DNA from: Spirogloea muscicola
Lineage: Eukaryota; Streptophyta; Zygnematophyceae; Spirogloeales; Spirogloeaceae
Assembly (NCBI GenBank): GCA_009602725.1
Contig: WELB01000081.1
Span: 341,857-369,567 of the forward strand
Direction of reading: 5' to 3'
DNA length: 27,711 bases
Under the pieces are notes generated by a model. That model did not search any database. It saw only the letters and a program-made list of their open reading frames with translations, and was not told the DNA's origin. The position numbers and the translations under genes are program-made. Shown here piece after piece: positions 7,401-27,711 of this stretch; position 1 is the stretch's first letter, and each line of letters starts with the position of its first letter.

Positions 7401-10400
7401 TGTACTGAAGCCAAAGCCACGGTGCTTGTCAGTTGCTTTATTGCTCTAATCCCTTGGCATTGTCTTTAACCCTAGATTGTGAGGGTCAACAAAGAAATTG
7501 ATTGAAGGGGTAGCTCTGTGCACATGTAATTACTAGCGCTAGACCCCTAGCCTTGCAGAAAGAAAACGCACGGGCAACAAACAGACGATATATCTGCATT
7601 CCTTGTCACAGCCAAGCAAGAGAAAGATCGAAGTGGGGAGCTCACGTTGCAATATACGTGTACGGACAAACTTGTTGACGCGCCAGATGAGACGCTCGCC
7701 AGCCAGCGCAAATATTACGGACCAGAAGAGCTCCCCTACTGAGTCCGGCAGGTCAAGGCTGTAAAACTCGATGCCCTGCCGCACCTTTGGCCGCGAGCCC
7801 AAGAGATGGACGAGGATGAGGAGCGAGACGGCCAGGCTGACACCAACCCAGGGATGCCCAAAGAACTCCATAGCAACCTCCAGATTCGACATGGGCTTCA
7901 ACTCTTCCTTCACAAGCGCCCGATCCCCACTGCCCGCCGGCTTCACATACTTTGGCGACAGCGTCTGGACAGAGCAAGACGCCCCTGGACGAGTATGTAA
8001 GAGTAGGTAGCTGCAGCGGTGCCAGTCATTCACAGCGGCCATTGACCACCTCTGCTTTTGCGAGTTTATCGTGCGTCAGATTAGTGTGCTTTCAAGGAGA
8101 GCATCACTGGAGGGGGCATGGTCGCATAGTGAACCTTGAGGTAAAGGATGTATGTGTCACGGATGCCGGAGCGCATGCCACCCTCGATCATGCCCTTCAT
8201 CATAGTGCTCTGCAAAAAGTTGGCGCGCCATGACACTCGGAGGTGGGACTGCTGCGGATCTGCAAGGCCAGAACAACGGCAACCGTCAAATCCCTGAGGA
8301 CCTGTCCAAGCAGTCACACTGAGGGGCTCCGCAACAGCATTATGCTCATGTACTTGGTCATGAGATCAATTACTATGTAAAACAAGATTCTGGTCACGGA
8401 GTGGAGGAGTGGAAGTATTGGCGCACGGAGGGAGCTCGGCTCAAGCAAGAACTGCATCTCCGTGCGGAACGTGCTCCCATATGGCACGTCGGGCGTGGAC
8501 ACTGAGACATCCACGAGGTAGCCCGCCTGGTCGGCACGGCGGTACGTCTGCGTCTCCGTTGCCTGCACCGCATCAGCACAACCAGAGCCTTGAGGTCCGC
8601 TTGGTTAGATAATTGTGCACCCAAAGGATGTGGCAGGCAGGAGAGGAAGCAATAACAAAGTCCGTAGCCACATACGCACCTTGTATGCCTTAACAAGGGA
8701 CGAGGCCGGAACCATGTATGAGTGTGAGCGCTGGATAGTGCCGTCGGGCAATCGCCGCCAGGGTGAGAACTCGGCCTGTGAGAGTTTGGAGGCTGCCGTC
8801 ATCTCATCTCGAAATGCACTTCCAGGCTTCCACATCACCTCATTCAGCTCCTGCGACGTTTACAATTTGTGGAGGCTTCAGTAATTCAATTAAAGTCCTG
8901 CACCTGTGAACGCACTCAACTGCTTCTCATTTCAAAACAAAGTTAGCTATAAGAATTTTTCTTAGAATGGTGAAAGTATATAAAGTGAAAAATTCAGTAA
9001 TTTGCTTAAGTCGATTGATTCATTCAGTGTTTTTTGTCAGATTATACCATGGCTTCAATGTAAACAAGTGACAGGGGCGGGACCTGGACGGAGGCATCAA
9101 ACATCTGGTCGAGGACAATGCCGCCAGGGAGCGGCGGCGGCATTGGCCCTGCACTGGCGTCCTTGCGAGGTTCGCTGAACCACTCCAATGGAAGCTCCTC
9201 TTGAGCACCATCGCTACAACTGTTGAGACTGTCGCCTGCCGCCGCTCTCTCCGCAATACCACTCTGTGGCCACGAGATGCTAGGAATGCTAATTAGCACC
9301 ACCTTCACGTACGGCGACATGAGACACGCTATAGGCATGTGGTGAGGCGCTTTGGCACCGGAGAAACAGCACGAGCACCCCACCAGTAAGGGGCTGGCGA
9401 GCATGGCCGCTGTCGGAGAGCCTGGCATGCCGGCCCCTCGCAGGTGCGGCATGCTGGCCAGGTGCGTCGTGACCACCGCCGTCCTGCAGTAGCGGCATTG
9501 CAGCCTTGGGTCAGCTCTCACAATATAGAATAATATCATTGATAGTATATTTTTATGTATCGTTATTGATATCAAAACAGAGCCAAGTCATAGCTTTGGC
9601 ACGCCCCTGACAGCAGTGCGCAGCATAGATAAGTGGTGCCGGATAGCCAGGTGGTGCGGTAACGCGCACCTAGGGGAGTGGACCACTGGCATGCTGCCGG
9701 TGTGCGTGAGCGAAGCCGCGATGCGGTGTCGCAGCGACGGCCGGGACGGTAACACGGCTCTCCCGTGCTGCAGCCGCCACCAAGCGCAGGGGGCGCATCA
9801 GCTGCACCACACTGACAACCGTGCAGCGACTGCAATGCTTTTGGCGATGGGGACCAGCTCACGTTGGAGTCGGTCGAAGCGTCCGACGACGCAGTCGAGT
9901 CCGTGCGCATAAGCTCGCCGGAAGTCGGGATCCCATTGACTGTGGTCGCGGTGTCATCAGAGCTTGCGAGCAAGCCTGAAAGGGTCTCTGATGACCGGCG
10001 GGACGAGCCATTGAGAGACCCCGCCGGCGAGCTGGGCTCCGTATCGGACTTGCCATACAGGCTAAGCCCCACGAAGATGTCGCCTGCACATGCATGCACA
10101 CACCAAATCTCGTCGTCTGAATGAAGGTTATCAAGATCGCTTTGTGACTTGCCAAACACTGTCATAACTGGACATTCTCTGGAGAGCTCTCACAGCAGCA
10201 TCTGAGAGGAGCAGCAGCAGTGCACCTTGGACGCGGGACTTGTCGCTGCGCTTCTGGAGCGGGTACCAGGTTGGCGGCAGGGTCTGGCCGTCAGCAGCCG
10301 CCACGTCCGCGACTGCAATACACAGCTGGCCCAGGAAGTCGTCGCGCGACATGTAATCCTCGTCCCACAGCATCATCTGCTCCCCCAAGACACAGCAGCC

Positions 10401-11262
10401 CTGCCTCAGCTTCTGCAGTGCACCATAGATGGTGGTTGTGGGTGGAGGCCTGGTCTCTGGCACGTCCACTGAAGGAGCAGCAGGAGCACAGCAGAGGTCA
10501 GTGCTGCCGCTGTCCCTTCTGATGCGTAACCGCGGTCATCAGAGCTGGCTTGGATGCCAGACGGAAACGATAGAGAGAAAATGACGCGAGACTCATGAGA
10601 GCCCTGCGCAAGACTACTCGTCGTATTCGTCATAAGTGTCGCTTAAGCAGCCATTATAGTCACTTGAGACGCCCTCTGCCACTGACAGGGAAGCTGGAGC
10701 AGCTAATGCCGGCACCCACGATAGGCGTATCATGAGAGGGCCATGCCAGTCCCGCTGCAGCGCCAGGCGGTGAGGGCTGCTATGGAGACGGGCGCTGTGG
10801 CGGCGTGGCGGCGGCCACCTGGAGGACGTCGGACTGCGGCGAGCGGACGTCGAAGGTGAACTCCTCGTTCCACACGGGGTTGAGGCTCTTGTACACCACC
10901 GCCGACTTGGCCTTGGCCTCCCCGACCTGCAGCTTCACGTACGGGTCGCTGCCCGCCGCATTGTGCGCCGCGGACGGCGGCGCGGCTTCAGCAGCTCCCT
11001 CTACGTGGCGACGACGGCAAACGGAGTGGCGGCGTGGCGGCGCAAAGGCGAGCGCCACCGGCTCCTGCCGCTGGCTGCCGCCGTACCGTCGAGGGCGCTC
11101 TGGCTGCACCGCGGCCGGAGGCGCGGCCGGGCCCTGCGCCGCGACTTGCGGCGGCGGCGNCGCCGCGATTGGCGGCTTGCAGGCCGGCGCGGGCGGCGGC
11201 GGCGACGGCTGGCCGCTCGCTGACGGACTGTGCTGTATTTTGTTCACATATGTGCTGGGCAT
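4404..11262 (-). CDS. C2-VASt-TM-C2-GRAM-VASt protein (plant C2/GRAM, At1g03370-like)
   Basis: This is a putative lipid/sterol-transfer protein of membrane contact sites. Exons are 10819-~11262, 10226-10376, 9863-10083, 9066-9263, 8680-8850, 8427-8562, 8135-8259, 7646-7964, 7143-7325, 6527-6810, 6208-6324, 5818-6089, 5407-5602, 4938-5213 and 4404-4640; all phases agree. C2-1 shows SDPYVKL, LNPVWNEEF and WDEDYMSRDDFLG. VASt-1 shows LDQMFDASVQVPPLSL, FRDEM, DVPYGSTF and HLRVSWRANFL. A helix (VGVSLAVSLLILVHLL, about 7840) follows. C2-2 shows SDPYITFTCNGKSRT and LNPTWNEI; GRAM shows FSVPDSEFLINDYSCSV and GRLFISPRQLGFYSNLFG; VASt-2 shows DVPFGDHFQ and LRVLVGVSWHKNT. Known plant proteins of this type are about 1020 residues; this one is about 1100. 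Intron 10 has a GC donor (AAG/GCAAGC). The N-terminus is uncertain: the first C2 strand is poorly conserved, GC-rich and interrupted by an N at 11160; starts at 11262 or 11269 are possible. Confidence 0.92.
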
Positions 11263-11559
11263 TATTCATTCATTTCATGTTGTTTTCTGAGATGGCCAAT
11301 CACTGCCATCGCCCTAGAAGAGTGTCTCACTTTGATATGCGCGCTGCCCGGCTCGCTCTCTGGTCATCAGTAGCCAAGACCTGCGGTTGCCTGAAACAAT
11401 GAGCGGCATGTACAAGTTCCTCAGGTGCATGCAGAGGTTGTTCATGATTATCTTAGCGGAAGCCACAAGCTAGAAAGAACAGAGAATGACAGGGCGCTCT
11501 CAGGGATCACCGAGTGCTTCGTAGCTTGCTTCGTTTCTTTTCTGTGCTTGTTGTTCTTC
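11263..11559. promoter_or_regulatory. Upstream region of the C2/GRAM gene, no motif recognised
   Basis: The compositional switch from the GC-rich first exon to mixed sequence at about 11240-11280 suggests that the promoter lies here. I see no TATA-like or other specific element that I can defend. Confidence 0.25.
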
Positions 11560-12130
11560 GTACTTCCCCTGGCCCGTTCTCGTCCTTCGTTCATTCTTTC
11601 TTGGGCTGGCTTTGCCAGCCCCTCTTCTCTATGGGCGCGCACTTCTCCCTTTTTCCAGCCCCTATCCTCAATGGACGAGCCCTTCATCTTAGTATCCCTG
11701 TGGCAGCGCTTACATGTCAGAAGAAGTCTTTCGGATTTGAGGCTCCTCACTCGTAGCTACTGAGTGGTCCATCCTCCCCCGTTCTGACATAGCATCTTCA
11801 GGCCCCTTCGTAGCTGCTTAGCGCTTTTGAGGCCCCTCCATCATTTGGCCCTTTCGAACCTTCGTCAATTCTTCTTCGGGCTGGCTTTTCACAGCCCTTG
11901 CCCCCATTAGGAGTGCCACTTCTTTGCTTTCACAGCCCTTGCCCCCATTAAGAGTGCCACTTCTTCTTTCCCCTCTGAATGCGTTCGGCTGGCTTTCACA
12001 GCCGCCCCTTTGCATCAGCATGCCGCGTGCTACACAAATGGAGTCCGTGTGCCCTTCCGGCCCCCTCTTCTCTATGGGCGAGCAGATCTCTTTTTCCGAG
12101 CAGCCGCTTAATGAGTGGGGCACCCACTGA
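11560..12130 (-). repeat. Interspersed repeat, copy 2
   Basis: It matches copy 1 in reverse complement (GGCTCCTCACTCGTAGCTAC, CTGAGTGGTCCATCCTCCCC and on through CCCTTTCGAACCTTCGTCAA). It also has its own internal duplication: CACAGCCCTTGCCCCCATTA at 11890 and again at 11931, a 41-base period. A further submotif, CCCCTCTTCTCTATGGGCG, occurs at about 11616 and 12061. No coding function is seen. Confidence 0.75.
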
Positions 12131-12380: not shown

Positions 12381-12440
12381 CCTCTCTCTCTTTCTTCTTC
12401 TTTTCTTCCCCTCTTCTTCTCCTCGTCTTCTCCTCCCCTG
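12381..12440 (+). repeat. Polypyrimidine (CT)n/(CTT)n tract
   Basis: Sixty bases made almost only of C and T lie between repeat copy 2 and the retroelement 3' end. It is simple-sequence DNA, perhaps a decayed tail or a replication-slippage product. Confidence 0.7.
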
Positions 12441-12573
12441 AGAGAAGGCGCGCGGTGCGCATGAAATTGAGAGGGAGGCCACTTCAAGCCTTACAAATGA
12501 CCTCTTAACTGGGTAATGAGCAGGCTAAGGGGGACACTAATATCCCCGAGTGAGCACATGTATATCTGACAAG

Positions 12574-13360
12574 CTAAGCTGAGGCACCACCACCACGGAA
12601 GCCATTAGCCTGTGCTAATGCACGACCGGCACGCTGGTGTATCGCGAGTGCCTGGGAGCGCTGTAGACTCAATGATAACCGCATTCTATAGCATGCAACG
12701 ATGGCTTGCGGGACGCTAGAATGCCCCAAGCTACCCGCCCGACTACGTCGGCGGGCATCGACATGCAGTGCCAAGCGATGGAGGAGGGAAGACCACTTCG
12801 TTCCGTAGCCGCCGTAGATGTCCATGGCGCATGGGAAGAAGTGGTCGCCCCGGGGGTGGTCATTGTAGTGCCTCTCCTTCTTCCTCTCCACATGATGTGT
12901 CGCCCAACCTGGCACAGTCGGTGTGGGTGCCCCTGGTTGGAATGCGTCGATGAGAACGACGTCGAGGAGAAGACGAGGCCCACCACTCCGGGGGTTGGCC
13001 ACCACATCCAGACGCCTGACGTAAGGCCTGCCACGCTTCTGGAGCACCGGCATGATGCCCGGCACCTCCATGGCCGCATAAAACCTGCCTCGCGCACCAA
13101 GCCATACATAGCGTCTCTGAGAAGATTGTGGGAGGCATTACGTTCACTTCCCTCAAAACATCGAAGCATGTGGGCTGCCAAAGATATCTCATCCTCCGAA
13201 CGATGGCCACATTCACATTGTCGAATGCCAGCCAGACAAAGTGGAGGGAGGCCGAGATGGTGGTGGACAGCCGTCTGGAAGAGGTCGTCGGAGAGCCGGA
13301 GGGATTCATAAATCGGCAAAGCGTTGAGCCACTCCGACGCCCCCGGCGAGCTGACTCCAC
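12574..13360 (-). pseudogene. 3' end of a non-LTR retrotransposon ORF, frameshifted
   Basis: Two minus-strand frames join into one retroelement C-terminus. The first (to about 13090) has a cysteine/histidine cluster, QCECGHRSEDEISLAAHMLRC, then HNLLRDAMYGLVREAGF. The second (from about 13090) has RRLDVVANPRSGGPRLLLDV, VERKKERHYNDH and FFPCAMDIYGGYGTKWSSLL, then MRLSLSLQRSQALAIHQRAG. This order (zinc-knuckle-like motif, N-x-L-R-D, R-x-DV, LDV, E-x-K, P-x-A-x-D-x-G) is typical of the endonuclease-like tail after reverse transcriptase in LINE-type elements. One extra base near GGTTTTATGCGG (about 13085-13095) breaks the frame, and reverse transcriptase is absent, so the copy is dead. A diverged second copy of its last part lies at 20655-20850 on the plus strand. 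Confidence 0.7.
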
Positions 13361-13394
13361 TTGTCCTTCTCTTTTCTTTTTCGCTAGCTATTCA

Positions 13395-13450
13395 GATTTG
13401 CATCTACTGACTAGAGGTTACTGAGAGGTTACTGAGTGGTCCATCCTCCC
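13395..13450 (-). repeat. Interspersed repeat, truncated copy 3, with 11-base tandem duplication
   Basis: GAGGTTACTGA is present twice in a row (13414-13424 and 13425-13435), followed by GTGGTCCATCCTCCC as in the other copies. Copies 1 and 2 continue with CCGTTCTG; here the match stops abruptly at 13450 and bacterial sequence begins. Confidence 0.7.
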
Positions 13451-13452
13451 AG

Positions 13453-13680
13453 GCGGAGAACATATCTACCGCGGAAGATCCGGTAGAATTTAACCTGGCG
13501 GGCATCAATCAGGTGCAGATGCATGAAGATATCGGCCTCAATTTTGCCGCCGCCCTGCGCTCATTTTAGCGTCAAGATCCGGATGTTATCATGGTGGGCG
13601 AGATTCGCGATTTTGAGACATGTGAGATAGCCATCAAAGCGGCTCTTACGGGCCACTTGGTGCTCTCTACACTGCATACC
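13453..13680 (+). pseudogene. pilB: Type IV pilus / type II secretion ATPase (PilB/GspE) fragment
   Basis: PilB-type ATPases drive pilus extension. The fragment covers the Asp box ([17 protein letters not shown]), the Walker B region ([15 protein letters not shown]) and the His box ([10 protein letters not shown]), roughly 75 of about 570 residues. An in-frame TAG at 13567-13569 interrupts RSF*RQDPD where the family has a leucine, one base change from TTG. The fragment starts at the algal repeat break and ends at 13680, where the expected asparagine after LHT is lost and another gene begins. Confidence 0.88.
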
Positions 13681-13682
13681 AA

Positions 13683-14138
13683 GCTTTCACAAAAGTATTC
13701 GGACCTTTCTTAGTTTACCCCAACGTTGCCGCCAACTACCAGAGTGCTTACGATGACGCGGTGACCCGAGGTAAAATTGAATTAAGAAAATGGCCATATA
13801 GTTTTCCCCTCGCATCGGCTTACGTGCCTCCTGCCAAACGTGGCAAAGTCTATGGCCGCATTGTCGTGGTGGATTCTACCAATGGTTTGCAATCGGGCGG
13901 TAATGGTTGGGTGGGGTTGGTAGATAGTACATTGCAGGGGCCTGGCGCCTCGTGGCAACAGGATGTGAGCAAATATCAATATTGGGAGCAAACCGACGGC
14001 GGTGGAAATTTTGCCATTTCAGGAGTCATTCCTGGGTCGTATCAGTTGGTAGCGATGGTTCCGGGAATCATTGGCAACCTTTGGTATACCAAAAATGTGC
14101 GCGTCGATAAAAATTTGCAGAGTCTCGGAATTGTTAAC
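13683..14138 (+). pseudogene. Rhamnogalacturonan lyase (polysaccharide lyase family 4) fragment
   Basis: PL4 enzymes cleave the rhamnogalacturonan I backbone of pectin. The frame reads [14 protein letters not shown], then WPYSFPLASAYVPPAKRGKV, GWVGLVDSTLQGPGASWQQD, KYQYWEQTDGGGNFAISG and VIPGSYQLVAMVPGIIGN, which is the end of the catalytic barrel plus the fibronectin-III-like domain. The catalytic N-terminal part and the C-terminal carbohydrate-binding part are missing. No stop codon interrupts it. Such enzymes occur in plants, fungi, oomycetes and bacteria; the bacterial neighbours argue for a bacterial source but do not prove it. Confidence 0.72.
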
Positions 14139-14521
14139 ATGCAAGCTGTAGCGTTATTCCTGATGCATTGCCTTGCTCGCTCTGGCATTTGCGTTTTCAG
14201 GATGCCGAGAAGACGGCTGTTTGGCAACGTATGGGCTGCTCTGCAGTATGGGTGTGGGAGCTGTGGGGAGGCGTGGTAGAGGTCGGGGCCTGGGATTGGC
14301 TTGCAGCTCTTGGGTGCATTGAGCGGGCTGGCAAGGTGCCTGTGCCTTGGCTGCTGGCGACGCGTCGCCGCTGCACAACGAAGTTTTTACGGCTGGCAGC
14401 GCGTTTGATCGATGCCGCGGTGCGTGCACCGGTATACAGCCCAGAGATCGCTCTGCGGCTCTTGACAAGCTACGACGAGCCGCGTGCGTTGGTACAATCA
14501 AAGCACCCCGATGTGCTTTGA
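14139..14521 (+). pseudogene. Unrecognised open frame, probably one or two gene fragments
   Basis: The frame runs through QDAEKTAVWQRMG, then a tryptophan/glycine-rich stretch, then LRLAARLIDAAVRAPVYSPE and ends at a TGA inside the hairpin at 14487-14532. Composition is protein-like in the last third only. I recognise no family, and a junction inside it near 14230-14350 is likely. Confidence 0.3.
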
Positions 14522-14532
14522 TTGTACCAACG
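14487..14532. repeat. Perfect 20-bp inverted repeat with 6-base loop
   Basis: CGTTGGTACAATCAAAGCAC (14487-14506) is followed by CCCGAT and then its exact reverse complement (14513-14532). No T-run follows, so it is not a typical bacterial terminator. Such fold-backs can be natural cruciforms, element ends, or scars of amplification or template-switching chimeras. It sits at a probable fragment junction. Confidence 0.85.
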
Positions 14533-14547
14533 GCTCGGCTCGGCTGC

Positions 14548-15388
14548 ATGCATGGCTCTCGTCATGCCACAAATCGTTATTCTTCGGCCCACAAATCCGG
14601 TCTATTCGTTATTTGTATAGCGGTGATTATTGTTGTGTGGGCCTTGATGTTCACCAAGAATGTATTGCCCTTAAACGAACCATTCTCCTCGGTTAAAGGC
14701 TCCTATGTGGTCAGCCCACTCGTTGAACCAAGAGAAAAGCGAAAACAGCCAGTTGACGCAACTATTATGAATACAGAGACAGAAAAATATCTCACTCATG
14801 AGGCTGTGACAGAAGGAAACTTCTCTCACCTGCAAGATCTCGCATACACAGAAAATTTTAATCTGCAGAGCTATTCTCAGCTAAGCAAAAAGGTTTTGCG
14901 AACGGCAGATGAAGTTCACCATTTTCAAACTCTTCTCGCAGATTCGCGTCATATCTCGGCAGCGAGGCATGTTCTTTTGGCGCGCGGAGTTGGTGCCTTG
15001 ACTGAAGCTGACGGGCTGGCACGCATGGGAGAGATTGATTTTCTAGCGGATGCTATTGCATGGCCAGAAAATCCCGCGCGTCAACAAGCGCTCAACACGG
15101 TTAAGGATATTTTACTTGAAAACAAACAAACACCCGAGGAACGGCGTAAAGATCGCGTCTTGGAGCTTGAGGCTGAAAGTCAACGTATAAGAGACAAGCT
15201 TGCTTCGGCACATTTAGAAAGTTTGCAGTTGGATCGGGCGAGTCAGCGCGACGTGGTAAGAAATTTTGGGATGTATCTGCAACGCGGCACGGTGGTCATG
15301 AGTGCACCTCCTAATTTAAACATGACAACGAATAATTTTATGCGTTGGATTCGTAAGCGTTCGGAATACTTCTTTCAGCCAACGCGTT
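14548..15388 (+). pseudogene. Uncharacterised bacterial single-span membrane protein, C-terminus lost
   Basis: I do not recognise the family. From the methionine at 14548 the product has a short basic N-terminus, one membrane helix (LFVICIAVIIVVWALMF, about residues 18-34) and then about 240 mostly helical, charged residues with a likely coiled segment (KDRVLELEAESQRIRDKLAS). The layout suggests an inner-membrane anchor with a periplasmic helical domain. The frame is natural until about RSEYFFQPT (15385), where it meets a TPR-protein fragment and becomes arginine-rich junk. It is the longest continuous piece of the mosaic. An upstream ATG at 14347 is in the same frame but would include the previous fragment and the hairpin, so 14548 is preferred. 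Confidence 0.55.
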
Positions 15389-15391
15389 ATT

Positions 15392-15590
15392 GCCGGCAAC
15401 GCTGCGGCCAACCCGGCAGCCGATCAAGAGGAGCTGAAAACGCTCATGGAAAGTCTGCGGCAGCGCCCCGACGATCTAAACGTAACGCTGCGCTTAGCGC
15501 ACCTGCTGCTGCGCAACCAAATGATTGAAGAGGCCCGCCTGGTCAATGACCGTGCCTTGAAACTTAACGCCAAGATCGGCAAAGGTTACG
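15392..15590 (+). pseudogene. Tetratricopeptide repeat (TPR) protein fragment
   Basis: The frame AGNAAANPAADQEELKTLME, then RQRPDDLNVTLRLAHLLL and EEARLVNDRALKLN, is one TPR with a preceding alanine-rich linker, as in CcmI-like or other bacterial TPR proteins. The next part (GKGYVGCCEDF) no longer fits a TPR, so the piece ends near 15590. Only about 65 residues are present; the exact protein cannot be named. Confidence 0.65.
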
Positions 15591-15702
15591 TTGGCTGCTG
15601 CGAGGATTTTGCTGCTGTGGGTGCCGGGTAGCAAGAGTTACACCACGTTTGGCTGCGCCGGGGCTTAAAAGAGGAGTTAAGTTCATAGACAGATAGGCAG
15701 AA

Positions 15703-15945
15703 ATGGCACAAAAGTGCACCGATGAGCGCCTTGGAGCGGAGAAGCTTCTGGCACAAGCGCTGCATCGTGTGCAGGCGGAGACCTTTTTGGCCACCTGCCA
15801 TGCCGACGAAGTTGAGGTGGTACAACGTGAAGGGGTGCCAGCGCGGATTGAGGTCATGCCGCAGGGCCGTGAATTCATCTATGCGGCGGTGGGGGGCAGT
15901 GTTGGCGTTGGCAAGCGTTTTGGATTCAACCACGACGGCCAACGC
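15703..15945 (+). pseudogene. Unrecognised bacterial open frame
   Basis: An ATG opens a frame MAQKCTDERLGAEKLLAQAL, then EVEVVQREGVPARIEVMPQG, then glycine-rich sequence, up to the metallophosphoesterase piece. The amino-acid use is protein-like, but no family is recognised and no clear ribosome-binding site precedes the ATG. The first part may come from a different gene than the end. Confidence 0.3.
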
Positions 15946-15950
15946 CGAAC

Positions 15951-16115
15951 GACGAAGAAGTATGGTACCTAGACCGACCTTCTGGCGGTAAAAGCTGGTA
16001 TTGTAATACCGGCACCTGGATTGCGGTGTTTACCCACGACGTTTTGATGCCTCGCGAACGCGTCCAGTATACTTTCTTACATATTCGCGACGAGACCGGT
16101 GAGCTCCTACATTGG
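15951..16115 (+). pseudogene. Calcineurin-like metallophosphoesterase, C-terminal fragment
   Basis: The frame DEEVWYLDRPSGGKSWYCNT, GTWIAVFTHDV, then VQYTFLHIRDETGELLHWS fits the end of bacterial metallophosphoesterases, where an N-T-G-T/S-W motif follows the last metal-binding histidine and a final beta-strand pair closes the sandwich. The metal-binding part is absent. It runs in frame into a MetF fragment, so a naive translation gives a chimeric protein. Confidence 0.55.
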
Positions 16116-16310
16116 AGCCAGCACTTGACGCGTTTTTTAGACGCCACCGCCGATATCGATGTACCCGTGCTGGTGGGCCTTCTGCCCCTAGCAAGCTACC
16201 GCAATGCCGAGTTTATCCACAATCACATCCCCGGCATGAGTGTCCCAGAAGAGGTTCGCAATCGCTTGCGGCAAGCTGGCAAAGGCGATGCCGCGCGCCG
16301 TGAGGGCACC
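16116..16310 (+). pseudogene. metF: 5,10-methylenetetrahydrofolate reductase (MetF) fragment
   Basis: MetF reduces methylene-THF to methyl-THF for methionine synthesis. The piece DIDVPVLVGLLPLASYRNAE, FIHNHIPGMSVPEEVRNRLR, then KGDAARREGTTIG matches the C-terminal half of the barrel as found in MetF or fused homocysteine methyltransferase/MetF proteins. About 60 residues are present. It is joined in frame to different sequences on both sides. Confidence 0.8.
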
Positions 16311-16433
16311 ACCATCGGTGCGGCGGTTGGCGTTCCGCAGTCAACATTTGACACCGAGATTGTCTCTGGTGGCTCAGGCCCTGCCCAAACCGGGCAGGTT
16401 ATTGGTGCGGCGCTGCGCGACCAAGCTCTGTAA
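16311..16433 (+). pseudogene. Unrecognised C-terminal fragment
   Basis: After MetF the frame continues as FDTEIVSGGSGPAQTGQVIG and ends with LRDQAL and a TAA stop. It looks like the natural end of another bacterial protein. The MetF family does not end this way, so a junction lies near 16310. The family is not recognised. Confidence 0.35.
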
Positions 16434-16457
16434 CGGCGTGTGCCAGGTAGGGGCCTA

Positions 16458-16671
16458 TCAGCGACGGGGCATCGCTAAAAAACTTGCCTGTGTTAACAGG
16501 GTGTCGATATCGATGGGCTTCGATAAAAACATCGCGGCCCCTGCACGCATAAGGTTTTCTTCTTGAACATGATCTTTTGTTTCGGCGAAGGCGAATACCG
16601 GCACGTGGTGGGTCTCTAGATGCGTTAATAAACGAAAAATATCAGGGTCGTTGGCATCTACCACCCGATGT
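16458..16671 (-). pseudogene. Response-regulator receiver domain, C-terminal fragment
   Basis: The piece [55 protein letters not shown] has the second half of a receiver fold: the beta-4 strand ending in a small residue, the AGA-x-x-FLSKP stretch with the conserved lysine-proline, and the last helix. The phosphoacceptor aspartate is missing. The frame ends with a stop at 16458. At its N-terminal side it is fused in frame to isocitrate lyase. Confidence 0.72.
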
Positions 16672-16965
16672 GAGAGCTCAAACATGCCATGGTTTAAGGC
16701 GTGAAAGCCGGCCAACGTCACAAACTGAAACTTGTACCCCATGGCTCCGAGCTCGCGTTGAAACTTGGCAATGGTAGACTCATCTAGATGACGCTTCCAG
16801 TTAAACGATGGTGAACAATTATAGGCCAACATCTTACCTGGATACTTGCTGTGGATGCCGGCAGCAAACTGCTTGGCCTCCTGCAGATCTGGGGTGGAGG
16901 TTTCACACCACAGGAGATCGGCGTAGGGTGCATACGCCAGGCCCAAATCCCTCACGGCGCAAGAC
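16672..16965 (-). pseudogene. aceA: Isocitrate lyase (AceA) fragment
   Basis: Isocitrate lyase splits isocitrate in the glyoxylate shunt. The frame [20 protein letters not shown], then [40 protein letters not shown] and [20 protein letters not shown] is highly conserved in the family, lying after the catalytic KKCGH loop, which is absent. About 95 residues remain. The frame then switches to a receiver domain with no stop, an in-frame chimera. Upstream of about 16965 the frame no longer fits. Confidence 0.9.
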
Positions 16966-17035
16966 GCATGCATCACAGCCACCACATGCCAGAGATCCGA
17001 TCGGGTCATAGCAGGAATGCGTTTCGCCGCTCAAA

Positions 17036-17128
17036 GGAATTTATCCAAGTATTTTAAAAAAGCCTGAGATTGGCGCTGCCGCACAAGAGGTTTTCAATGC
17101 TGGCAAAGCCAGATTGACGGGCGCATAG
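17036..17128 (+). pseudogene. Possible cobalamin-dependent methionine synthase (MetH) fragment
   Basis: A 30-residue frame, GIYPSILKKPEIGAAAQEVF then NAGKARL, resembles the MetH segment that reads roughly YPxIxxxxxxGxEAxxLxxDA before the activation domain. It ends with TAG at 17126-17128. Length and similarity are limited, so another protein is possible. Confidence 0.4.
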
Positions 17129-17223
17129 CGGACTTGCATCGTCGCGCTCCGCGCCTGACGCTTGCGACCTGGTGGGATTGTTAAGAGATACGTAAAGGCA
17201 ACAGATTGAGCAGCAAGGCTCTC

Positions 17224-17415
17224 CTATAAACGCTGTGAACTCCCGATTAAGCGACGGTTTTGAGCAGCTCGAACCGTTACCAGATGCCGCTCAGAGCGAC
17301 ACGCCCAGGCGAGCAATTCCTTGAAGTCAGCTCCGGCATCCAGCTGAAACCAGCGCGGTGTATCAGCAGCGAGAGCGTCGAACGTGCGATTAACTTGGAG
17401 ACTGCGGCTTGTATG
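17224..17415 (-). pseudogene. IS4-type transposase fragment
   Basis: The frame LQVNRTFDALAADTPRWFQL, DAGADFKELLAWACRSERHL, VTVRAAQNRRL has the pattern around the second catalytic aspartate of IS4-family DDE transposases (W-x-Q-x-DxGAD, then a short spacer, then LVTVRA-x-xxRR). The insertion sequence ends and the other catalytic residues are missing. It is the only trace of a bacterial mobile element in the mosaic and is itself cut on both sides. Confidence 0.6.
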
Positions 17416-17565
17416 GCAAGATCTCCAGGAGGTTATGGGCAAGCTTGGACTATCGGTTTAACGGTTACTTTCAGGGCATCATGGCCGTCATGCTAGCCGT
17501 CGCAGGGGCGCCATTGGCCGCTGCGAACGAGGTGCTTGAGCCGAACCTTCTTGTAGATCATAGTA

Positions 17566-17871
17566 CCGCTGATCCACAAACACCGCGACACCGCCACGGC
17601 CGTAACCTTCGTAAGAGGTTTCCTCAACAGGCGGCCCTTCGAGGGCGCCCGTACCTTTTTTGATCGCACGATCAATATTGTCAGCGGGCATGCTTTGCGC
17701 CTTGGCGGCAGCAATGGCGGCACGCAGACGCGGGTTACCGTTAATATCGCCGCCGCCCATACGTGCTGCGGTGGTAACCTCGCGCACAAGCTTGGTGAAA
17801 ATTTTGCCTTTTTTGGCGTCAATTTCACCTTTTTTACGCTTAATTGTTGCCCATTTACTGTGACCTGACAT
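17566..17871 (-). pseudogene. yebC: YebC/PmpR-family regulator, N-terminal fragment
   Basis: The protein begins [20 protein letters not shown], then [40 protein letters not shown] and [17 protein letters not shown], unmistakable for the first 100 of about 245 residues of YebC, a widespread DNA- or ribosome-associated regulator. The start is the natural one, but no ribosome-binding site precedes it because another fragment is joined directly upstream. After VFVDQ the sequence loses similarity (about 17566). Confidence 0.92.
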
Positions 17872-17874
17872 GGG

Positions 17875-18011
17875 GCATCGGCTAACACAGGGCAGGCATC
17901 AAGGCAACTGGATTCGCTGCGATAGATGTGTTTAATGTCAGTTTCTAGAGGATCTAACTCTAGGAATCCTTGAACCCGCCATTGTAGAAATCCGACAGCA
18001 GCCCAACCCAA
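17875..18011 (-). pseudogene. Unrecognised bacterial fragment
   Basis: The minus-strand frame reads GWAAVGFLQWRVQGFLELDP, then [20 protein letters not shown]. It has protein-like composition and lies directly upstream of the YebC start in a different frame. The family is unknown. Confidence 0.3.
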
Positions 18012-18087
18012 TCTACTTTACCCTGACATCAGCGGCCTCATCAACGAGGCTTGCTCGGTCAGGGACGGCTTACGAGCTTGTGCAATC

Positions 18088-18400
18088 TTGAATCTTGCGG
18101 ACCCTGGGGCTGGTTCCAGCGACAACCGCGAGGCTGCCCTCGCGGTGGCCGACTTCTCTAATCTTGAGTACCTCGATGCACCAATCCGGCGCCGAAAAGC
18201 ATTCGGTGGGCTGTCGCTGGCCGAATCTTGGCAACGCCATGCGTCAAATTTTTACGAAATTGTTACCCAAGCAGACGCAGCTCAGCTGTTGACGCTCCAA
18301 TCCCCGTATAGTACCGCAGAACTTCTAGAAAGTGTCTGCCGCGGTGGCTATCCCGAGCCCGCTCTGGAACGGCAAGATCCACTGTTCGGCCCCGCAAGAC
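18088..18400 (+). pseudogene. Unrecognised frame ending in a DUF4143-like ATPase motif
   Basis: The frame contains FSNLEYLDAPIRRRKAFGGL, then [20 protein letters not shown] and [11 protein letters not shown]. The RGGYPEPxL motif is typical of the C-terminal DUF4143 part of bacterial AAA-type ATPases. The first half need not belong to the same gene. The rest of the ATPase is missing, and from about 18400 the PP2C fragment on the other strand takes over. Confidence 0.35.
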
Positions 18401-18439
18401 CTAGCGGTATCCCATTTGGCGTCAACGCTATCGCGTTGT

Positions 18440-18702
18440 AGGACTCCAAACCCTGGGTTTTCGTCGTAGGTGACGGCGCGGTCTTCCTTGTAGGGCCAAG
18501 TAATTTCTTTATCGCGCGCAGTATCAACAAAAAAATTGGCCAGGGTCTCTACCGCAATCTGTGAGGCCACTTCGCCGGAAGCATGCCCCCCCATACCATC
18601 GGCAACGACGTAAAGGTTTTCCTCAGCCAAGAGGAAAAAATTGTCCTCGTTGTGGGCTCGCTTCATACCGACGTGTGTGCTGCCGGCGTAGCGGATCTTC
18701 AT
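18440..18702 (-). pseudogene. PP2C-type serine/threonine phosphatase, N-terminal fragment
   Basis: Bacterial PP2C (Stp-type) phosphatases oppose Hanks-type kinases. The frame [58 protein letters not shown] carries both N-terminal metal-binding motifs (RxxNED and DGMGGHxxGExAS). About 87 of about 250 residues remain. The start at 18702 is natural for the family. The segment [17 protein letters not shown] after it resembles Myxococcota members, which supports a donor of that type. The piece ends within PGFGVLQ. Confidence 0.9.
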
Positions 18703-19130
18703 TCGATGACTCTTCTACGGAAGCGGACGGCCCACCAATGGGCCCTTAACCCTGCAGATTGTCGTAACACGCTCATCTAAGTCAATCAAGCCATCCGCAC
18801 GGTCCAGCACTGGGTGCCCGCAATCACCCACTTTGGGTGGTACTCTGAGGTCCCGTTGTGCGGTACAATTTTGGACTGGCGGCGAAATCGTGCCCTACTG
18901 TGTGGAGTCGGCCGTCATCTTTTGTTACGTGCTCACAAACGTTATTAGGACGTCCAGGGGCAGCTTGTATGAACAAGTTTTTCGATATGTTGACGCGGGG
19001 CAGCTTCTCCGAAGCCTCACAGCGCCGCGGAGTTTCAGGTGGTGCGCGATTGGCACGGGCGCATGGCAGACCCCGCAGACCCTACCAAGAAAACGCTGCG
19101 GTGTGTTTTATTGGATAGTATATGCCGCAG
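18703..19130. other. Mosaic stretch without recognisable family
   Basis: Several short open frames exist on both strands. On plus, MNKFFDMLTRGSFSEASQRR from 18970 and FQVVRDWHGRMADPADPTKK in another frame from about 19036 look protein-like but cannot be assigned. Frame changes suggest at least two junctions here. Confidence 0.4.
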
Positions 19131-19139
19131 CGCTTATAA

Positions 19140-19290
19140 TTAACGAAACTCTGCTTTGTGAAAGGCGCGTGCGATAGCCAGCACCTCGCCAACACGTGCG
19201 GCAATGCGATGGCTGTCGCGTGGGGTAGTTTCGAGCAGGCATACCACAGCGTCTGCCGCCAAATTTGCAAAATGTTGGGGTCCCAGGGCG
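19140..19290 (-). pseudogene. Unrecognised C-terminal bacterial fragment
   Basis: The frame FANLAADAVVCLLETTPRDS, HRIAARVGEVLAIARAFHKA ends with EFR and a TAA stop. It is helical and looks like a natural protein end. An overlapping frame upstream (FKQRWQEEWIKHDEQRYTRY, about 19290-19370) looks equally genuine and probably belongs to another fragment. Neither family is known to me. Confidence 0.35.
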
Positions 19291-19391
19291 CCGCTGGCGT
19301 CTTTCCAAGGTAACGTGTGTACCTCTGTTCGTCGTGTTTAATCCACTCTTCTTGCCAACGTTGCTTAAATACAGCACCCGACGGACAACCC

Positions 19392-19623
19392 CAGGTTTTT
19401 TAGGACGCACCCGGGTGCGCCAATCACCGCTGTGAGCCCCATGCTGAGCCTCTGCATTCTGCAGGCCGGCATATGCCTGCGGACACATCAAGCTGCGCCG
19501 ATATTGACGAGAAGGCCCGATCTGCAACGTATCAACGGCCCGATAAGGTTGCGATGACGGCACACTTTGCGCAAAAGCACTGGAAACAACCGGCGGCCGT
19601 ACAAAAAGATGAAGCGACGACAT
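19392..19623 (-). pseudogene. N-terminal fragment of an unknown bacterial protein with ribosome-binding site
   Basis: GAGGTG lies 5 bases before the ATG at 19623, the clearest bacterial ribosome-binding site in the window. The frame MSSLHLFVRPPVVSSAFAQS, VPSSQPYRAVDTLQIGPSRQ has a short hydrophobic-plus-AFAQ-like N-terminus that could be a weak signal peptide. The family is unknown. The frame degenerates at about RVRPKKPG (19392). Confidence 0.4.
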
Positions 19624-19675
19624 TTAACACCTCGTAGGATAAGGTACGCGATTGCGCCGCGAACCCGCAGCCTCG

Positions 19676-19858
19676 TTAGCCGAAGGTGCTCAACAACGCA
19701 AACAAATCGGCCAGAGCTTCGGCATCATCTAGATAGACGCAGTAGGCATCGAGCCGACCGTCAATCTCGCGCGCCGCGCTCATCACGGATTTAAGACGTC
19801 GGTTGGCCTGCGCGGGATCACGTGCACGCTGGTCCCGACGTGCCAAAACAAAGACCAC
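19676..19858 (-). pseudogene. Unrecognised C-terminal bacterial fragment
   Basis: The frame VFVLARRDQRARDPAQANRR, LKSVMSAAREIDGRLDAYCV, YLDDAEALADLFALLSTFG ends in a TAG stop. It is clearly protein-like, with a regular helix pattern, and represents the end of a gene whose start is lost at about 19860. I do not recognise the family. Confidence 0.4.
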
Positions 19859-19865
19859 CCGGGGA

Positions 19866-20480
19866 GCTTTGCCATCAGAAAACGTGCGGCCGTGCCAAGT
19901 TTGCTGGGCCGTTCCCTGACTTGGTGCGTCTGTTAAGAGGCCAGGGTTGGTCGCTGCCGCCCACCGCGGCGGTCCGTCTCACCGGATCTGGGGCAGCCCT
20001 CCTAGCGCAGCCTTTTCGTCTGCGCGTCGATGTTGCTTCCAACCTGCTGGGCGGCAGTGCTGCCTCCACGGCGCAGGCCTATCGTAACCTACCCATACTG
20101 CCGCAAATGACTCAGTTTGCCATCGACCGAGTTAGCGGCGCAGATCCTCGCTCAGCTCGTGGCGAGGTTCTGCACTATGTTGCGCAAAAGTATGCGAGCA
20201 TTGGTTGCTCGATCAGCTGTGCGTGGCAAGCGTCGTAGAAGCATGGTGACCTCGAGAGGTGCATCGAGAGTCACCGAAACACTGCTGAGGCAGCGTGAAC
20301 AGCTAGCGCTGAGATGAAAAACTGCGCAACCACGTACATGCACAATTTCGTCGAGTGTGATTGCAATAGGCTGCTTTTAGCAGGTCGTACTTCGCCCAGA
20401 GCAAAGCCGAGTAAAAATGTTTCGGTGTAGTTTGGCAGCGTGAGCGCTCGACGGCAGCGGTTACAAGCGCCAGCTTTTGG
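19866..20480 (+). pseudogene. Last part of the bacterial mosaic, unrecognised frames
   Basis: A plus frame reads WSLPPTAAVRLTGSGAALLA, then RLRVDVASNLLGGSAASTAQ to about 20110. A second plus frame, 20117-20317 (MPSTELAAQILAQLVARFCT), is basic and ends in TGA. On minus, TETFLLGFALGEVRPAKSS at about 20360-20420 looks protein-like. No family is assigned. The boundary with the algal repeat is between about 20470 and 20500. Confidence 0.35.
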
Positions 20481-20489
20481 ACTTCGGAA

Positions 20490-20640
20490 GCCTGGTCAAA
20501 GGAGAGCCACTTCTTCTACTGAGAGTCCGCTTGCTGCTGTCTCAGTCCTTAGCACTCCGGCTCCTTCAGACCTTGTCCACTCCTTTGGGCTGGCCTCTCC
20601 CAGCCACCAATCTGGCCGCGCTTGCTTCTTTTTTTAGAAC
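20490..20640 (-). repeat. Interspersed repeat, copy 4
   Basis: CGCTTGCTGCTGTCTCAGTC and CTCCGGCTCCTTCAGACCTT (20530-20570) are the reverse complement of copy 1 at 3687-3735, followed by GGGCTGGCCTCTCCCAGCCACC, which matches about 3394-3415. The copy marks the return to algal DNA after the bacterial block. Confidence 0.75.
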
Positions 20641-22230: not shown

Positions 22231-23804
22231 CTAGGCTAACATGAAGGCCAGCACAGAGCCCACGGCAAGGGTGCTCAACAAGTGCAAGGGCATGTTGCGC
22301 CTGGAGCGTCCTACTGGTGGGGAGGGCGAAGGAGGGGACTGAGGCGGGGGAGCTGCCTCAGGCGGGGGCCCGGAAATTGGAGGAGGGATCCCGAGGGGAG
22401 GTGGCAATGCCCTTGGTGGTGCAACTGGCGAGGGGATGTGCACAGGAGGGGGGTGCAGCAGGAGAAGCGGAGGACTGGTCACTGACACAGGCGGGACTGC
22501 TGAATTAACAGCTGGGGGGGGCTGAGGAAGCGGAGCAGCGGCCGGTGTAGGAGGTGCTGCTGGGTTAGCTGCTGGCGGAAAGGAGGGAGGGCTGGCATTG
22601 GGAGGGGGCGGAGAAACGACTGGCGCAGGAGCCGGCATTGACGGCTGGGGGGGTGAGGGGGGTGGGAGTGTCGCAAGAGGGGGAGCAGCCTGCGGTGCAG
22701 CTCCAGGGGGCGGCGTGCCTGGACCGGGGGCCGGAGGAGCACCCCTGTCATCGACAGGGGGCGGTGATATATCAGTACCAGCGTGTGGTGGCGGGTGGGA
22801 GGAGGGGGGCTGGTGTGGTGGCGCCAATACTCTGGCTGGGGAGTGTAGAGGACGCAGAGATGGCGGTGGCTGTGAAGGTGAAGGTGACGAAAGTGGTGGA
22901 GGGTGGCGTATTGCAATGATGGGCGATGATGGCGGCGGCGAGTGGCTAGGCGGGGGTGAGTGTGGCGGCGACAGGATGGAGAGGAGCGGAGGAGGCGGCC
23001 ACGGTGAAGGCAGCTGCTTGGCAGGAGGTTGCGGAGGAGGGTGCTTCAGTGTTGGAGGAGGGTGGGGAGGAGGCGAGGAGTGACCAAGGACAGGCGGTGG
23101 TAGTAGGAATTTGGCAACAGGACCCCCGGGGGGTGGTGCTGGGGCTGGAGGGAGAGCCATGGGCGGTGGGGCCAGAGGGGGCGAATGTGGGGGAGGCGAG
23201 AGAGGCAGAGGTGCTGGCGCTCGCAATTGAGGAGGGGGCCGCAGAGGTGGGGGCGAGCTGGGAGGAGGGGCGTGCGGCTTGGGTGGGGGCGAGCTGAGAG
23301 GAGAAGGGACTTGCAGCTTGGGTGGGGGCCGCGGAGGCGGCGGCGAGCTGATAGGAGGGGGGTTGTGCTGCTTGGGTGGGGGCCGCGGAGGTGGCGGCCA
23401 ATGAGGANGAGAGCACCGGGCCAGGCGAGCGACGGGGGCCTGGCGTTGGAGGGGTCGGCGGCATGGCTGCACCTGCAGGACCTGGCTGCGGGGCGGCTGC
23501 TTGGGGAGGGGGGCTCCGGGTGGGGAAGGGGGGTGGCGCTACAGAGGGAGGGGGCGAGGAGGGAGGGGAGCCGGGGGGGACGGCGGCGTCAGGAGCCGGG
23601 CCAGCTGGAGAAGGTGTGAAGCCTCCCTCTGGAGAGGAAACCCGTGGAGGCGGTGCTCCGCCGGCACCGCCGCTAGCCCCGGGCGGGGACGGGCGGGGGG
23701 GCATGGCCGCTACCGGCGAGGGTGCAAGGGTGCCATCCGGTGGTGCGGCGAGGGGGGTGGCTGCCGGCGGCTGGGGTGGTTGTAGTGGAGGAGGGGGCCT
23801 GGCA
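22231..23804 (-). CDS. Long proline-rich (extensin-like) exon with C-terminal GPI-type tail
   Basis: About 520 residues, very rich in proline, serine and alanine, with SPPPP, PPPRPPPK and SPSPP-type blocks, form a hydroxyproline-rich glycoprotein-like rod as in volvocine and chlorellan wall proteins. It ends with RSRRNMPLHLLSTLAVGSVL plus AFMLA and a stop, a basic-then-hydrophobic tail typical of GPI attachment signals (a plain membrane anchor is the alternative). The undetermined base at 23408 splits the frame; leaving that base out gives one continuous frame (SPGPVLSPHWPPPP). The start at 23804 is a splice acceptor: a (CT)n tract followed by CCGCGCCAG. It supplies the one base needed to complete the split codon left by the donor at 24237, so this is probably the last exon of the SGNH gene. 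An independent gene starting at ATG 23971 would lack a clear signal peptide. Confidence 0.75.
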
Positions 23805-24237: not shown

Positions 24238-27200
24238 GGCTGGAGGCCTGTGGTGGAGGAGAGGAGCTTGGCGATGAAAGGCATCATGCAGCTCGCCCAC
24301 TGCCCGTACCCATATTGCGAGAGGTGAAGCAGTTGGAACGAGTCCTGAGCCCAAGAAGAGGCATACGACTTGACTTCATAAGCACAATCACAAACAGCGA
24401 TGAAGCACTGCAACCCTTGGCAAAAAAGACATGTGACGTTGATGCATATTGTGTCCAAGGTAGTCAACAACAATGCTCACAGTGTGGTCACAGAACATGT
24501 AGTTACAGGACATGTCCTGTGATGAACACTTCCTTTGTTTCTTTTCGGAGGACTTGATAGAGTCATGTAAGCCTCCTTGAGTTATGGATCATACACATGA
24601 AGCTAGCATGAAGTAAGCCAAGAAGGCTAACAAGAGCATTCACCTTGACATACAGTTGAGGATTAAGGGTGCCCGAAGGCGTGAGGAAATGACTACTGCA
24701 GTCAATGTATTTGATCAAGCCCCCTGCTCACACAAGGATACAAGGCCCCGTGATTACAAATGACAGCCGAGGCCGCGACCAAGATGCTAACAGCGTGCAA
24801 TCGAAAACACCCAAACCATAACCTTGCAAGGTCCAGCACTATCCCATGCTAAGACTTGTGATAAGCAATACAGTGACTTCAGAATGTAGCCAGCGACGTT
24901 GTCAAGGACTTTACCGGATAGAGGCAGCAGCTGTGCGTTCACCAGGCCCGTCCAGCCAATTGGTTGACTGAGATTTGGAGTCCCTCCCTCGAGAAAACTC
25001 TGTCATCAGAAGGCAGTCAAGCAGCAGCCTGTGAGGAAGGGCATGCCTTGATCCACTGCTGATGAAGCATGGTGAAGTAAGCAAGCAGATTATGGTAACG
25101 TTTCTGTGCGATGCCATGCAAACCTAAAGATCAACTCACAAACACATGAGAGCAAATTACACACAAAATGACATGGCATGTATGACAGCAGCCAGCATGA
25201 GTTGCTAGATGCTACATCTACTACTATGACAGACTGATGTAGAGATGTCTACAGACATGGTACGAGAAAATCACCTCAGGAAGAAGGCCATTCACAAGCA
25301 CAGCAGTGTTTGGGTGGCTTTCTCGAATAGCAACCACAAGTTTCGCTATCTGGGAATTTCAAAGTACAGCCAACAATTGGTCATTCAAAAGCAGATGAAA
25401 AGTAGATTGCCAAAAGCCAGGGCATGTTGTATACTTCATGCCATGCAGTGGCTATGGAGCCATGCAGTGGCTATCCAGAAGAGCACATCAACGCTCTTTT
25501 AACCAGAGTCCAGCATGAAGCAACATACCATATGAAACACTGTAAAGTGAGGGTAATTTCACAAGTCAGCTGCAAAATGTGACAGACTGAGCTGGACAAA
25601 CTCGACAGCTGGAAAGAGTAGTTACATTGGCTGCTGTTGTGGAGATGGAGGAATTGGTGAGGAGATCATTGATGCCGATGCAGAGCACCACAACTTTGAC
25701 AGAAAGCGAGCTGGGCAGCTCAGGAGTCCCTGAATTCTGCGCAGTGAGCAACAGTGTTCCTCATCATCTTTGTGAACAACAAGTAACCAGGTGATCATGA
25801 TCAATTACCACAACAATCTCCTACAGAAATTTGTTAAGTCCAGCATAGCCTAATCTGCACACTCCTACATACCAGGAGACGCCACAGGACATTGCGTGAT
25901 GTGTCCTGTGCAATGCCAAAGTCAAAGTATGACAGAGGCTTGCCCTGGCCATTCCCTAGATCTGCCATCAGCTTCTGAAGCTGCGCCCTGCAGATGAAGA
26001 GGCGCCGCACATAACGTGAAGTGTCATAATCATGCAGTCTCTTATGCTGCTGCTAATACATCAGGGCAACCTTCACGTACAAGGTCACGTGTTTTGGCCA
26101 GATGAAGGGCAACAAGGTGCAAGGAGCATGAACTGGCCGAGAAGAGCTTGTGGAGGTAAGGCAGAGTCCTCACTTGGAACCGTGATAGAGTCCCACAGGG
26201 TACCCTTTCAGGGTCTCTTCCCAGCCCTGAACATATGATCAACAAGGATACAATGGGCTCATCATCAACCATCTCAGCCAAAAAAGAGCGAGCCCATGTA
26301 GGCAAATCCTAAAGCCTGTACGTGCCTCATCCTATCGGACTCAGAGATTGTCGAATAATGTTCTAACTGCGTTCATTATACAATGTCTATGACTTTCTGC
26401 ATTGGCAGAAGTCGGAGAGGTGGGGACAAGACATAGCAGCCATGTACCTCAGTGATGGAGTCACCGACGAAGATGACGTCAACATACTTGGTGCCCAGGG
26501 CCTGCGACACGTACTGGTTGTGCAGGGACAGCCACCGGGCATCATTGAGCTTTGGCGTGCCGGCGTCGCCCAGGCCCGCCGACCCTGTCGGCACGGGGCT
26601 CACAATACCGCTCCCAGAGGCCGGCGCTGACGAGGGCGCCGCCTGCTTGCCGATCGTCGGGAAGCTGTGCGTGTCGACCTTGCCCACGGGACTGGGCTGC
26701 GGGGGCACCAACCCCTTGATGATGTTAGGCGGCGGTGGCAAGGCAGGCCCCCTGCCCCCAGTGCCATTGTGTGGCGGAGGCGGATGCCGTTTCTGTGAAG
26801 AAATGGACGGCGGCGGCCACAGTACGCTGGTGCGCTTCGGAGGCGGCAGCGCCCTGGTGGTCTTCTTGTGGCCACCCTTCTTCGTGGTCGTCGTCGCGGC
26901 CTTCGGCGGCGGGGGACGCCTCGCGGACCCGCCGGTGCCCGGCGGAGGCGGATGCGGAGCCGGCCCTGTGGGCTTCTTGTGATGGCCGCGGATCACGCGC
27001 ACAGACGGCGGGGGCGGGTGCATGCCGGCGCTGCCCGGCGGCACTGGCAGATGCGGCGGAGGCGGCTGCTTGTGATGCCCGCGCGTCGGCCGTGCCTTGA
27101 CCGGCGGCGGCGGCTTCTTCTTGATAATGCCACCAACAGGCGGCGGCGTCGAGCGCTTGTGATGGCCGCGGCTGGCGGCGGCGGCAGGCGGCGGCAGTGA

Positions 27201-27344
27201 TCTCGGTAGCGGCGGCGCCTTGGCCAGGAGGCTCTCCCCGGCGGCGTTGGCGCCGCACAGGGCCGCGACGAGGCAGACGACGGCCGCAACGAAGGCAGCG
27301 ACCAGCGACGCCTGTGGCGGGGCGCGCCGGCAGCGGACTGCCAT
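24238..27344 (-). CDS. Secreted proline-rich / SGNH (GDSL) hydrolase protein
   Basis: A putative cell-wall or extracellular esterase of the PAF-acetylhydrolase-like SGNH family. Exon 1 (26448-27344) has a signal peptide (QASLVAAFVAAVVCLVAALC ending GANA), then about 180 proline-rich, basic residues with three RGHHK and one GGHKK repeat, and SGNH block I (YVDVIFVGDSITE). Exons 2 (26174-26226, GWEETLKGYPVG), 3 (25873-25987, FDFGIAQDTSRNVLWRLL, block II), 4 (25626-25736, VKVVVLCIGINDLL, block III) and 5 (25275-25349, HPNTAVLVNGLLPE) join in phase. Exon 6 starts at 25103 (KRYHNLLAYFTMLHQQWIKA), but its 3' end is unresolved. Exon 7 (24644-24723, IKYIDCSSHFLTPSGTLNPQ) and exon 8 (24238-24344, DSFQLLHLSQYGYGQWASC, block V histidine) again join in phase. 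The usual D-x-x-H aspartate appears as glutamine (QLLH). The frame reaches a TAA at 24234, but a GTAAGT donor just before it probably splices to 22231-23804. Start 27344 is preferred to 27431 because the signal peptide then begins at the N-terminus. Confidence 0.85.
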
Positions 27345-27711
27345 CTCTGCCGACGGCCTCTCACATGAACGGCAACCTATGCAGCAGCCTAGGCCTGGCG
27401 CCGTGCCGCTGCACATGACATCGCCAGCCACCGGCAGCGAGAGTCAGATGGCTCTGACGGCCCCGACAACACATCTTAACGGGGACCCGGCGGGCAGTCC
27501 CACTGGCGTTCGGAGATAGATCAAGAGGTGCTGACGACGAGGCTCAGAAGGCAAGCCGGCATCGGCAGCACTGATCAGAGCACCATCAGAAAGCCTGCCG
27601 ATAAGGCCGGCGAGCAGGCGCAGCGGCGTCATGGAGCGCCGCGGCCTCGCCCGATCCGCGGTGCGGACGGTCCGGCCTTGCAACCGGCGCCGGCGGCGCG
27701 GCGGGGGGGGG
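27345..27711 (-). promoter_or_regulatory. Upstream region of the SGNH gene
   Basis: GC-rich DNA precedes the SGNH start and ends in a G-run at the window edge. A longer in-frame N-terminal start at 27431 exists. No promoter element can be named with confidence, and no gene on the plus strand is supported. Confidence 0.3.

Follow-up and report, generated by a model that had tools for sequence, protein, structure and literature searches.

How a run of unrelated bacterial gene fragments comes to lie within an algal chromosome is the question raised by a 27,711-nucleotide stretch of the Spirogloea muscicola genome (contig C81, WELB01000081.1, positions 341857-369567; hereafter the window, numbered from its first base), taken from an assembly of 153.1 Mb in 471 contigs. 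The initial annotation, made by a model from the letters and their translated open reading frames (ORFs), had described a mosaic of bacterial pieces here, ending at 20480. The mosaic is indeed present, and its borders can be set to the single base at 13451 and 20500. The resulting 7.05 kb are bacterial in every part that can be read and occur as a single copy in the genome. Both edges fall within a copy of an algal repeat, R2, itself nested in a copy of another algal element, R1. As judged from the assembled sequence, many short bacterial DNA pieces were probably captured at a break in the R2 copy, a reading to which we assign a probability of roughly 0.75.

Nested algal elements at the mosaic edges

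The outer flanks of the mosaic are the two halves of an R1 element, at 13383-13427 and 20517-20630 (both plus strand). Four other loci, on C28, C10, C45 and C78, have these halves side by side without interruption; like the R2 sites used below, they are paralogous copies rather than the allele. The left half is 93% identical to C28 and C45, 92% to C78 over 37 nt and 96% to C10 over just 24 nt, while the right half is 93% identical to C28, 92% to C10 and C122, and 81-83% to C45 and C78. A fifth R1 locus, that on C122, agrees more weakly, with a 14-base ungapped left match. When projected onto the contiguous loci, the two halves overlap by 9 nt in C28, C10 and C78 (L146, L147 and L149) and by 7 nt in C45 (L148). 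The motif TACTGAGAG is single in the contiguous R1 loci and double here (13419-13427 and 20517-20525, plus strand), and thus constitutes a 9-bp target-site duplication. Another high-copy element occupies 12440-13354 (at least 41 near-full matches at 89-97%, with 40 candidates scored); it stops at 13354, just left of R1, and two other copies run past that point.

Inside the duplication, the mosaic is bordered by two stubs of R2. The left stub (13430-13450, plus strand) is identical in all 21 bases to window positions 11758-11778 and 3548-3568, and the right stub (20501-20517, plus strand), which represents the R2 3' end, corresponds to the commonest R2 ending over its 17 bases, the final three of which vary among copies. 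The left motif has 24 matches in 20 R2 loci, six of them identical and the others differing by one or two bases. The right motif follows on the same strand after 113-114 bp in 21 of the 24 and after 130 bp in one, the remaining two running off the locus end; two further R2 copies in the window have spacings of 113 bp and 130 bp. By the spacing of these motifs elsewhere, the mosaic stands in place of 113-114 bp of R2. At the right edge the bacterial match reaches the border, with a possible 2-nt overlap.

R2 is a high-copy repeat whose copies share one 3' end and vary at the 5' end. Copies of long interspersed nuclear elements (LINEs) have a constant 3' end and differing 5' ends. We therefore refer to R2 as LINE-like, a term based on the target-site duplication and the end structure, which fit LINE insertion, and not on a reverse transcriptase gene. 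Since the R2 edges are in register and R1 is contiguous elsewhere, the flanks of the mosaic would thus formerly have been one locus.

The register of the edges bears directly on a possible artefact. The initial annotation had offered an amplification or assembly chimera as one explanation, and our own first choice was for a time such a chimera, formed with DNA of a companion bacterium at the library, amplification or assembly stage. Bacteria accompany algal cultures, the reading frames of the mosaic are mostly intact, and our evidence is drawn from the assembled sequence rather than from reads. However, both edges are in register in one R2 copy inside one R1 copy, so that two foreign joins about 113 bp apart would have had to strike the same nested copy by chance. 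On this ground the chimera was dropped as first choice. The mosaic also contains no N letters (single Ns occur elsewhere in the window, at 3032, 11160 and 23408), and with two in-frame stops in ~1,056 codons a single noisy read is an unlikely source.

Two bacterial families were searched for across the whole assembly. The T2SSE profile (PF00437) found no match besides the mosaic itself, and the Sigma54 profile (PF00158) found a single weak match (E 1.3e-4, 28 bits) in a 427-aa frame on another contig. In control genomes, both families match in 14 of 14, above cut-off in 13 and 14, respectively. Neither search points to contigs of bacterial origin in the assembly, although a cleaned assembly, from which such contigs had been removed, would look alike, stretches outside the searched sequence could also hide them, and a companion bacterium may have been present all the same. 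Taken together, we consider a chimera improbable. Other mosaics may exist in the genome, T2SSE and Sigma54 being the families searched genome-wide. The view that the surroundings are algal is supported by the 153-Mb genome, its high-copy repeats and the presence of a C2-GRAM-VASt gene left of the mosaic.

Composition of the mosaic

Fourteen pieces could be assigned, seven per strand, covering ~3.6 of the 7.05 kb. The initial count of at least fifteen is plausible in view of the ~3.4 kb without assignment, with 14 pieces that can be named. Six are above the Pfam cut-off: a PilB/T2SSE piece (13456-13683, plus; in-frame TAG at 13567), a PL4 lyase domain II piece (13698-14114, plus; PF14686, E 2e-13; 36% to G103), an isocitrate lyase (ICL, AceA) piece (16668-16943, minus; NF011645, E 3e-50), a YebC N-terminal piece (17572-17874, minus; PF20772, E 3e-32), a PP2C N-terminal piece (18457-18702, minus; PF13672, E 2e-7) and, barely, a QueC C-terminal piece (16945-17028, minus; PF06508, 22.7 bits against a cut-off of 22). 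The last had been labelled MetH-like, a label that was not confirmed. A MetF piece (16119-16319, plus; bifunctional HMT/MTHFR; NF006396, E 6e-17; Pfam MTHFR below cut-off) and an IS4 transposase piece (17089-17340, minus; in-frame stop at 17224; NF033590, E 1.5e-9, 37 bits where the whole-protein cut-off is 160) match NCBIfam models by E-value, below cut-offs made for whole proteins. These results uphold the earlier PilB, PL4, AceA, YebC, PP2C, MetF and IS4 labels; those of a TPR-like piece (15416-15568, plus; PF14561, E 7e-4; PF14559, E 9e-4) and a receiver-like piece (16488-16631, minus; PF00072, E 7e-4) are weak, with a best E of ~7e-4 and scores below cut-off.

The remaining four pieces are supported by homologous Myxococcota ORFs alone. 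A 273-aa open frame (14566-15384, plus) belongs to a myxobacterial protein family, with partial matches at 24-36% identity in 29 of 195 genomes (best E 1e-12). It may be most of a gene, and the earlier statement that none of the pieces is complete may not hold for it. Several genomes carry two relatives of this piece close together, and in L120 and L123 relatives of it adjoin an ORF that may be Hint-like. The second piece (15697-15966, plus; no Pfam match) is 39-42% identical to L112 and has two similar stretches in G001. The third (15948-16118, plus; no Pfam match) is 67% identical to a 436-aa ORF of G007, which itself lacks a Pfam match, and the metallophosphoesterase label given earlier was not confirmed. 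The last piece (20442-20500, minus) touches the right edge and matches G011 at 84% over 61 nt; at the protein level it aligns with 21 aa of a 682-aa ORF at 90% identity.

Adjoining pieces can abut, as seen at 16118/16119 and 16943/16945. The assigned pieces run as seven plus followed by seven minus; this pattern was dropped as meaningful, as a codon score trained on 10 of the pieces suggests plus pieces in the right half (~18071-18260 and ~19961-20160). The two in-frame stops (13567 and 17224) fall in the ~1,056 codons of 10 assigned pieces, a count biased by the choice of open frames, and six pieces (PilB, YebC, AceA, PP2C, MetF and 15948-16118) align with relatives without gaps. Rfam and tRNA scans gave no matches. 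We propose no function for the mosaic, which reads as decaying debris.

Between two of the pieces, at 14487-14532, lies a perfect inverted repeat with arms of 20 bp and a 6-nt loop, within a longer imperfect palindrome of 67 bp (85%). It might mark a fold-back at a junction, or be a bacterial terminator. A perfect hairpin would also suit a block that was pre-assembled in a bacterium or plasmid, as an integron-like array or a laboratory construct, and then inserted whole. Against this, the block contains no whole cassettes, its pieces being partial and from unrelated genes in either orientation, and the repeats within it are short and imperfect, for which reasons an integron-like array was rejected. 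Furthermore, the ten best of 93 matching plasmid records hit AceA alone and span 4% of the query, with no record reaching 80% coverage; pre-assembly appears highly improbable. A protein search in plasmids with 19679-19876 found nothing.

Relatives in the Myxococcota and the proposed history

The initial annotation had asked whether one donor genome contains all the pieces. Ten of the 14 have Myxococcota homologues, eight of these in at least one of eight genomes of the order of G001; all pieces together were seen in none of the genomes searched. Protein identity to the relatives' loci is highest for PilB (92% G001, 93% G002) and PP2C (91%, with 82% DNA identity, G001), followed by AceA (82% G058, 85% G005), YebC (80-81%, G001 and G002), MetF (67-68%, G009), 15948-16118 (67%) and 15697-15966 (~40%). 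When PP2C was compared with the genome collection, Myxococcota ranked on top at 91% and 89%, some other phyla also occurring among the best 80 of 549 relatives; the 14566-15384 ORF found no relative in that collection. At the DNA level, PilB, PP2C, YebC, AceA, MetF and 15948-16118 match genomes of the G001 order or of the Myxococcota, mostly at 66-82% identity. A phylum-wide DNA run, in which scoring was confined to each genome's two best candidates, matched 190 of 195 genomes, with the listed matches mostly PilB and AceA, and carries little weight. Among the matches listed in that run, those to PilB all end at base 13682; a few weaker ones in other runs end elsewhere. The stretch 18703-20500 has any match in two of 195 genomes, one being G011, of the G001 order. 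The comparable pieces are not neighbours in their relatives: G001 has PP2C, PilB and YebC on three separate contigs, and PP2C and YebC are 31 kb apart in G008 versus 0.6 kb in the mosaic. A single donor near the G001 order would be the simplest reading of these similarities.

The most probable order of events begins with the entry of the LINE-like R2 copy into an R1 copy, which would have created the 9-bp target-site duplication. The chromosome would later have broken inside that R2 copy, and end joining would have filled the break with many short pieces (tens to ~800 bp) from a myxobacterium-like cell, linked end to end in both orientations, with 113-114 bp of R2 being lost in the process. 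We propose end joining with filler because the pieces abut, both strands are used, 113-114 bp of the target are missing and a 2-nt overlap is possible at the right edge. The earlier suggestion of pieces joined one after another, in the manner of organelle-DNA mosaics, gains support from the edges being in register in a nested retroelement copy.

Alternatively, a single event might account for both insertions, with the bacterial pieces entering during R2 retrotransposition, fragments of bacterial DNA being linked to a broken R2 cDNA and the duplication flanking the whole block. The 9-bp duplication does enclose both the R2 stubs and the mosaic, and both stubs are in register. However, R2 would then need to have been split into two in-register stubs at once, and a later break is simpler; we regard a single event as unlikely. 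A shade less likely still is its more specific form, in which retrotransposition in the alga captured digested myxobacterial DNA, whether of prey, a predator or a companion, and assembled the mosaic in a new R2 copy. If true, LINE activity would let algal chromosomes gain shredded environmental bacterial DNA.

Several observations weigh against capture of filler pieces from one donor at a break in R2. About 3.4 kb of the mosaic is without assignment. The R1 loci were picked for matching one flank, and the 20 R2 loci are the top of a match list and no random sample. The left flank ceases to resemble R2 upstream of its 21-base stub, so the precise position of the 5' end of this copy is uncertain. 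Matches to PL4 occur in three of 195 Myxococcota genomes and to the 273-aa frame in the 29 noted above, and the eight genomes of the G001 order are among neither set, a result that argues against one donor; the TPR, receiver, QueC and IS4 pieces were not placed. For a complete piece, the nearest potential donor found reaches ~82% identity in DNA, so that any microhomology at the junctions, the number of pieces and the single donor are things we infer.

With regard to age, the two stops in ~1,056 codons and the six gap-free pieces suggest a divergence since insertion of roughly one or a few percent, an estimate biased low. The stops may be of donor origin. The earlier view of the event as recent is thus loosely supported, the stop count being subject to the choice of open frames.

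Elsewhere in the window, the minus-strand open frames at 4866-11265 that encode VASt, GRAM and C2 domains are probably exons of one gene, and the mosaic begins ~2.2 kb beyond the C2 frame. The long proline-rich open frames at 22237-23538 and 26382-27443 have no Pfam match; by eye they are presumably pherophorin- or extensin-like.

Relation to known insertions of foreign DNA

If capture at a break in R2 is correct, it would provide a route for bacterial DNA into algae without gene-sized transfer, leaving debris only. The locus would then be a base-resolved case of fragmented DNA resembling a free-living bacterial lineage, built into a eukaryotic chromosome as organelle DNA is. Decontamination filters could remove genuine sequence of this kind, and the question becomes testable through split retroelement copies with foreign filler in algal genomes. 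We recognised no prior report of a bacterial-fragment mosaic in an alga in a literature search whose coverage excluded most subscription journals.

Transfer from bacteria to eukaryotes ordinarily involves whole contiguous genes or long genome segments. The mosaic resembles such transfers in being bacterial DNA within a nuclear genome, but the few pieces that can be compared are not neighbours in relatives. Scrambled T-DNA/vector concatemers in plants, in which full and partial foreign fragments are concatenated in the chromosome, look alike as joined foreign fragments (PMC6338467); those described there involve experimental Agrobacterium delivery and few sources, whereas here there are many chromosomal genes and no delivery system is seen. 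Built in a similar way are complex and mosaic organelle-DNA insertions (numts, nupts and numins), such as those in plants (PMC6215612), where several short fragments lie at one nuclear locus in any order and strand, as filler of non-homologous end joining, with some target deletion. The present locus likewise holds several fragments of different origin (14, two weak and one marginal) between flanks that are contiguous at unoccupied, paralogous sites, with a small deletion. The fragments in those insertions derive from the cell's own organelles, whereas the placeable pieces here (PilB, AceA, YebC, PP2C and others) resemble Myxococcota; host organelle sequence was searched within the assembly only. 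The mosaic is thus not a numt, and is best read as a variant of complex filler insertion.

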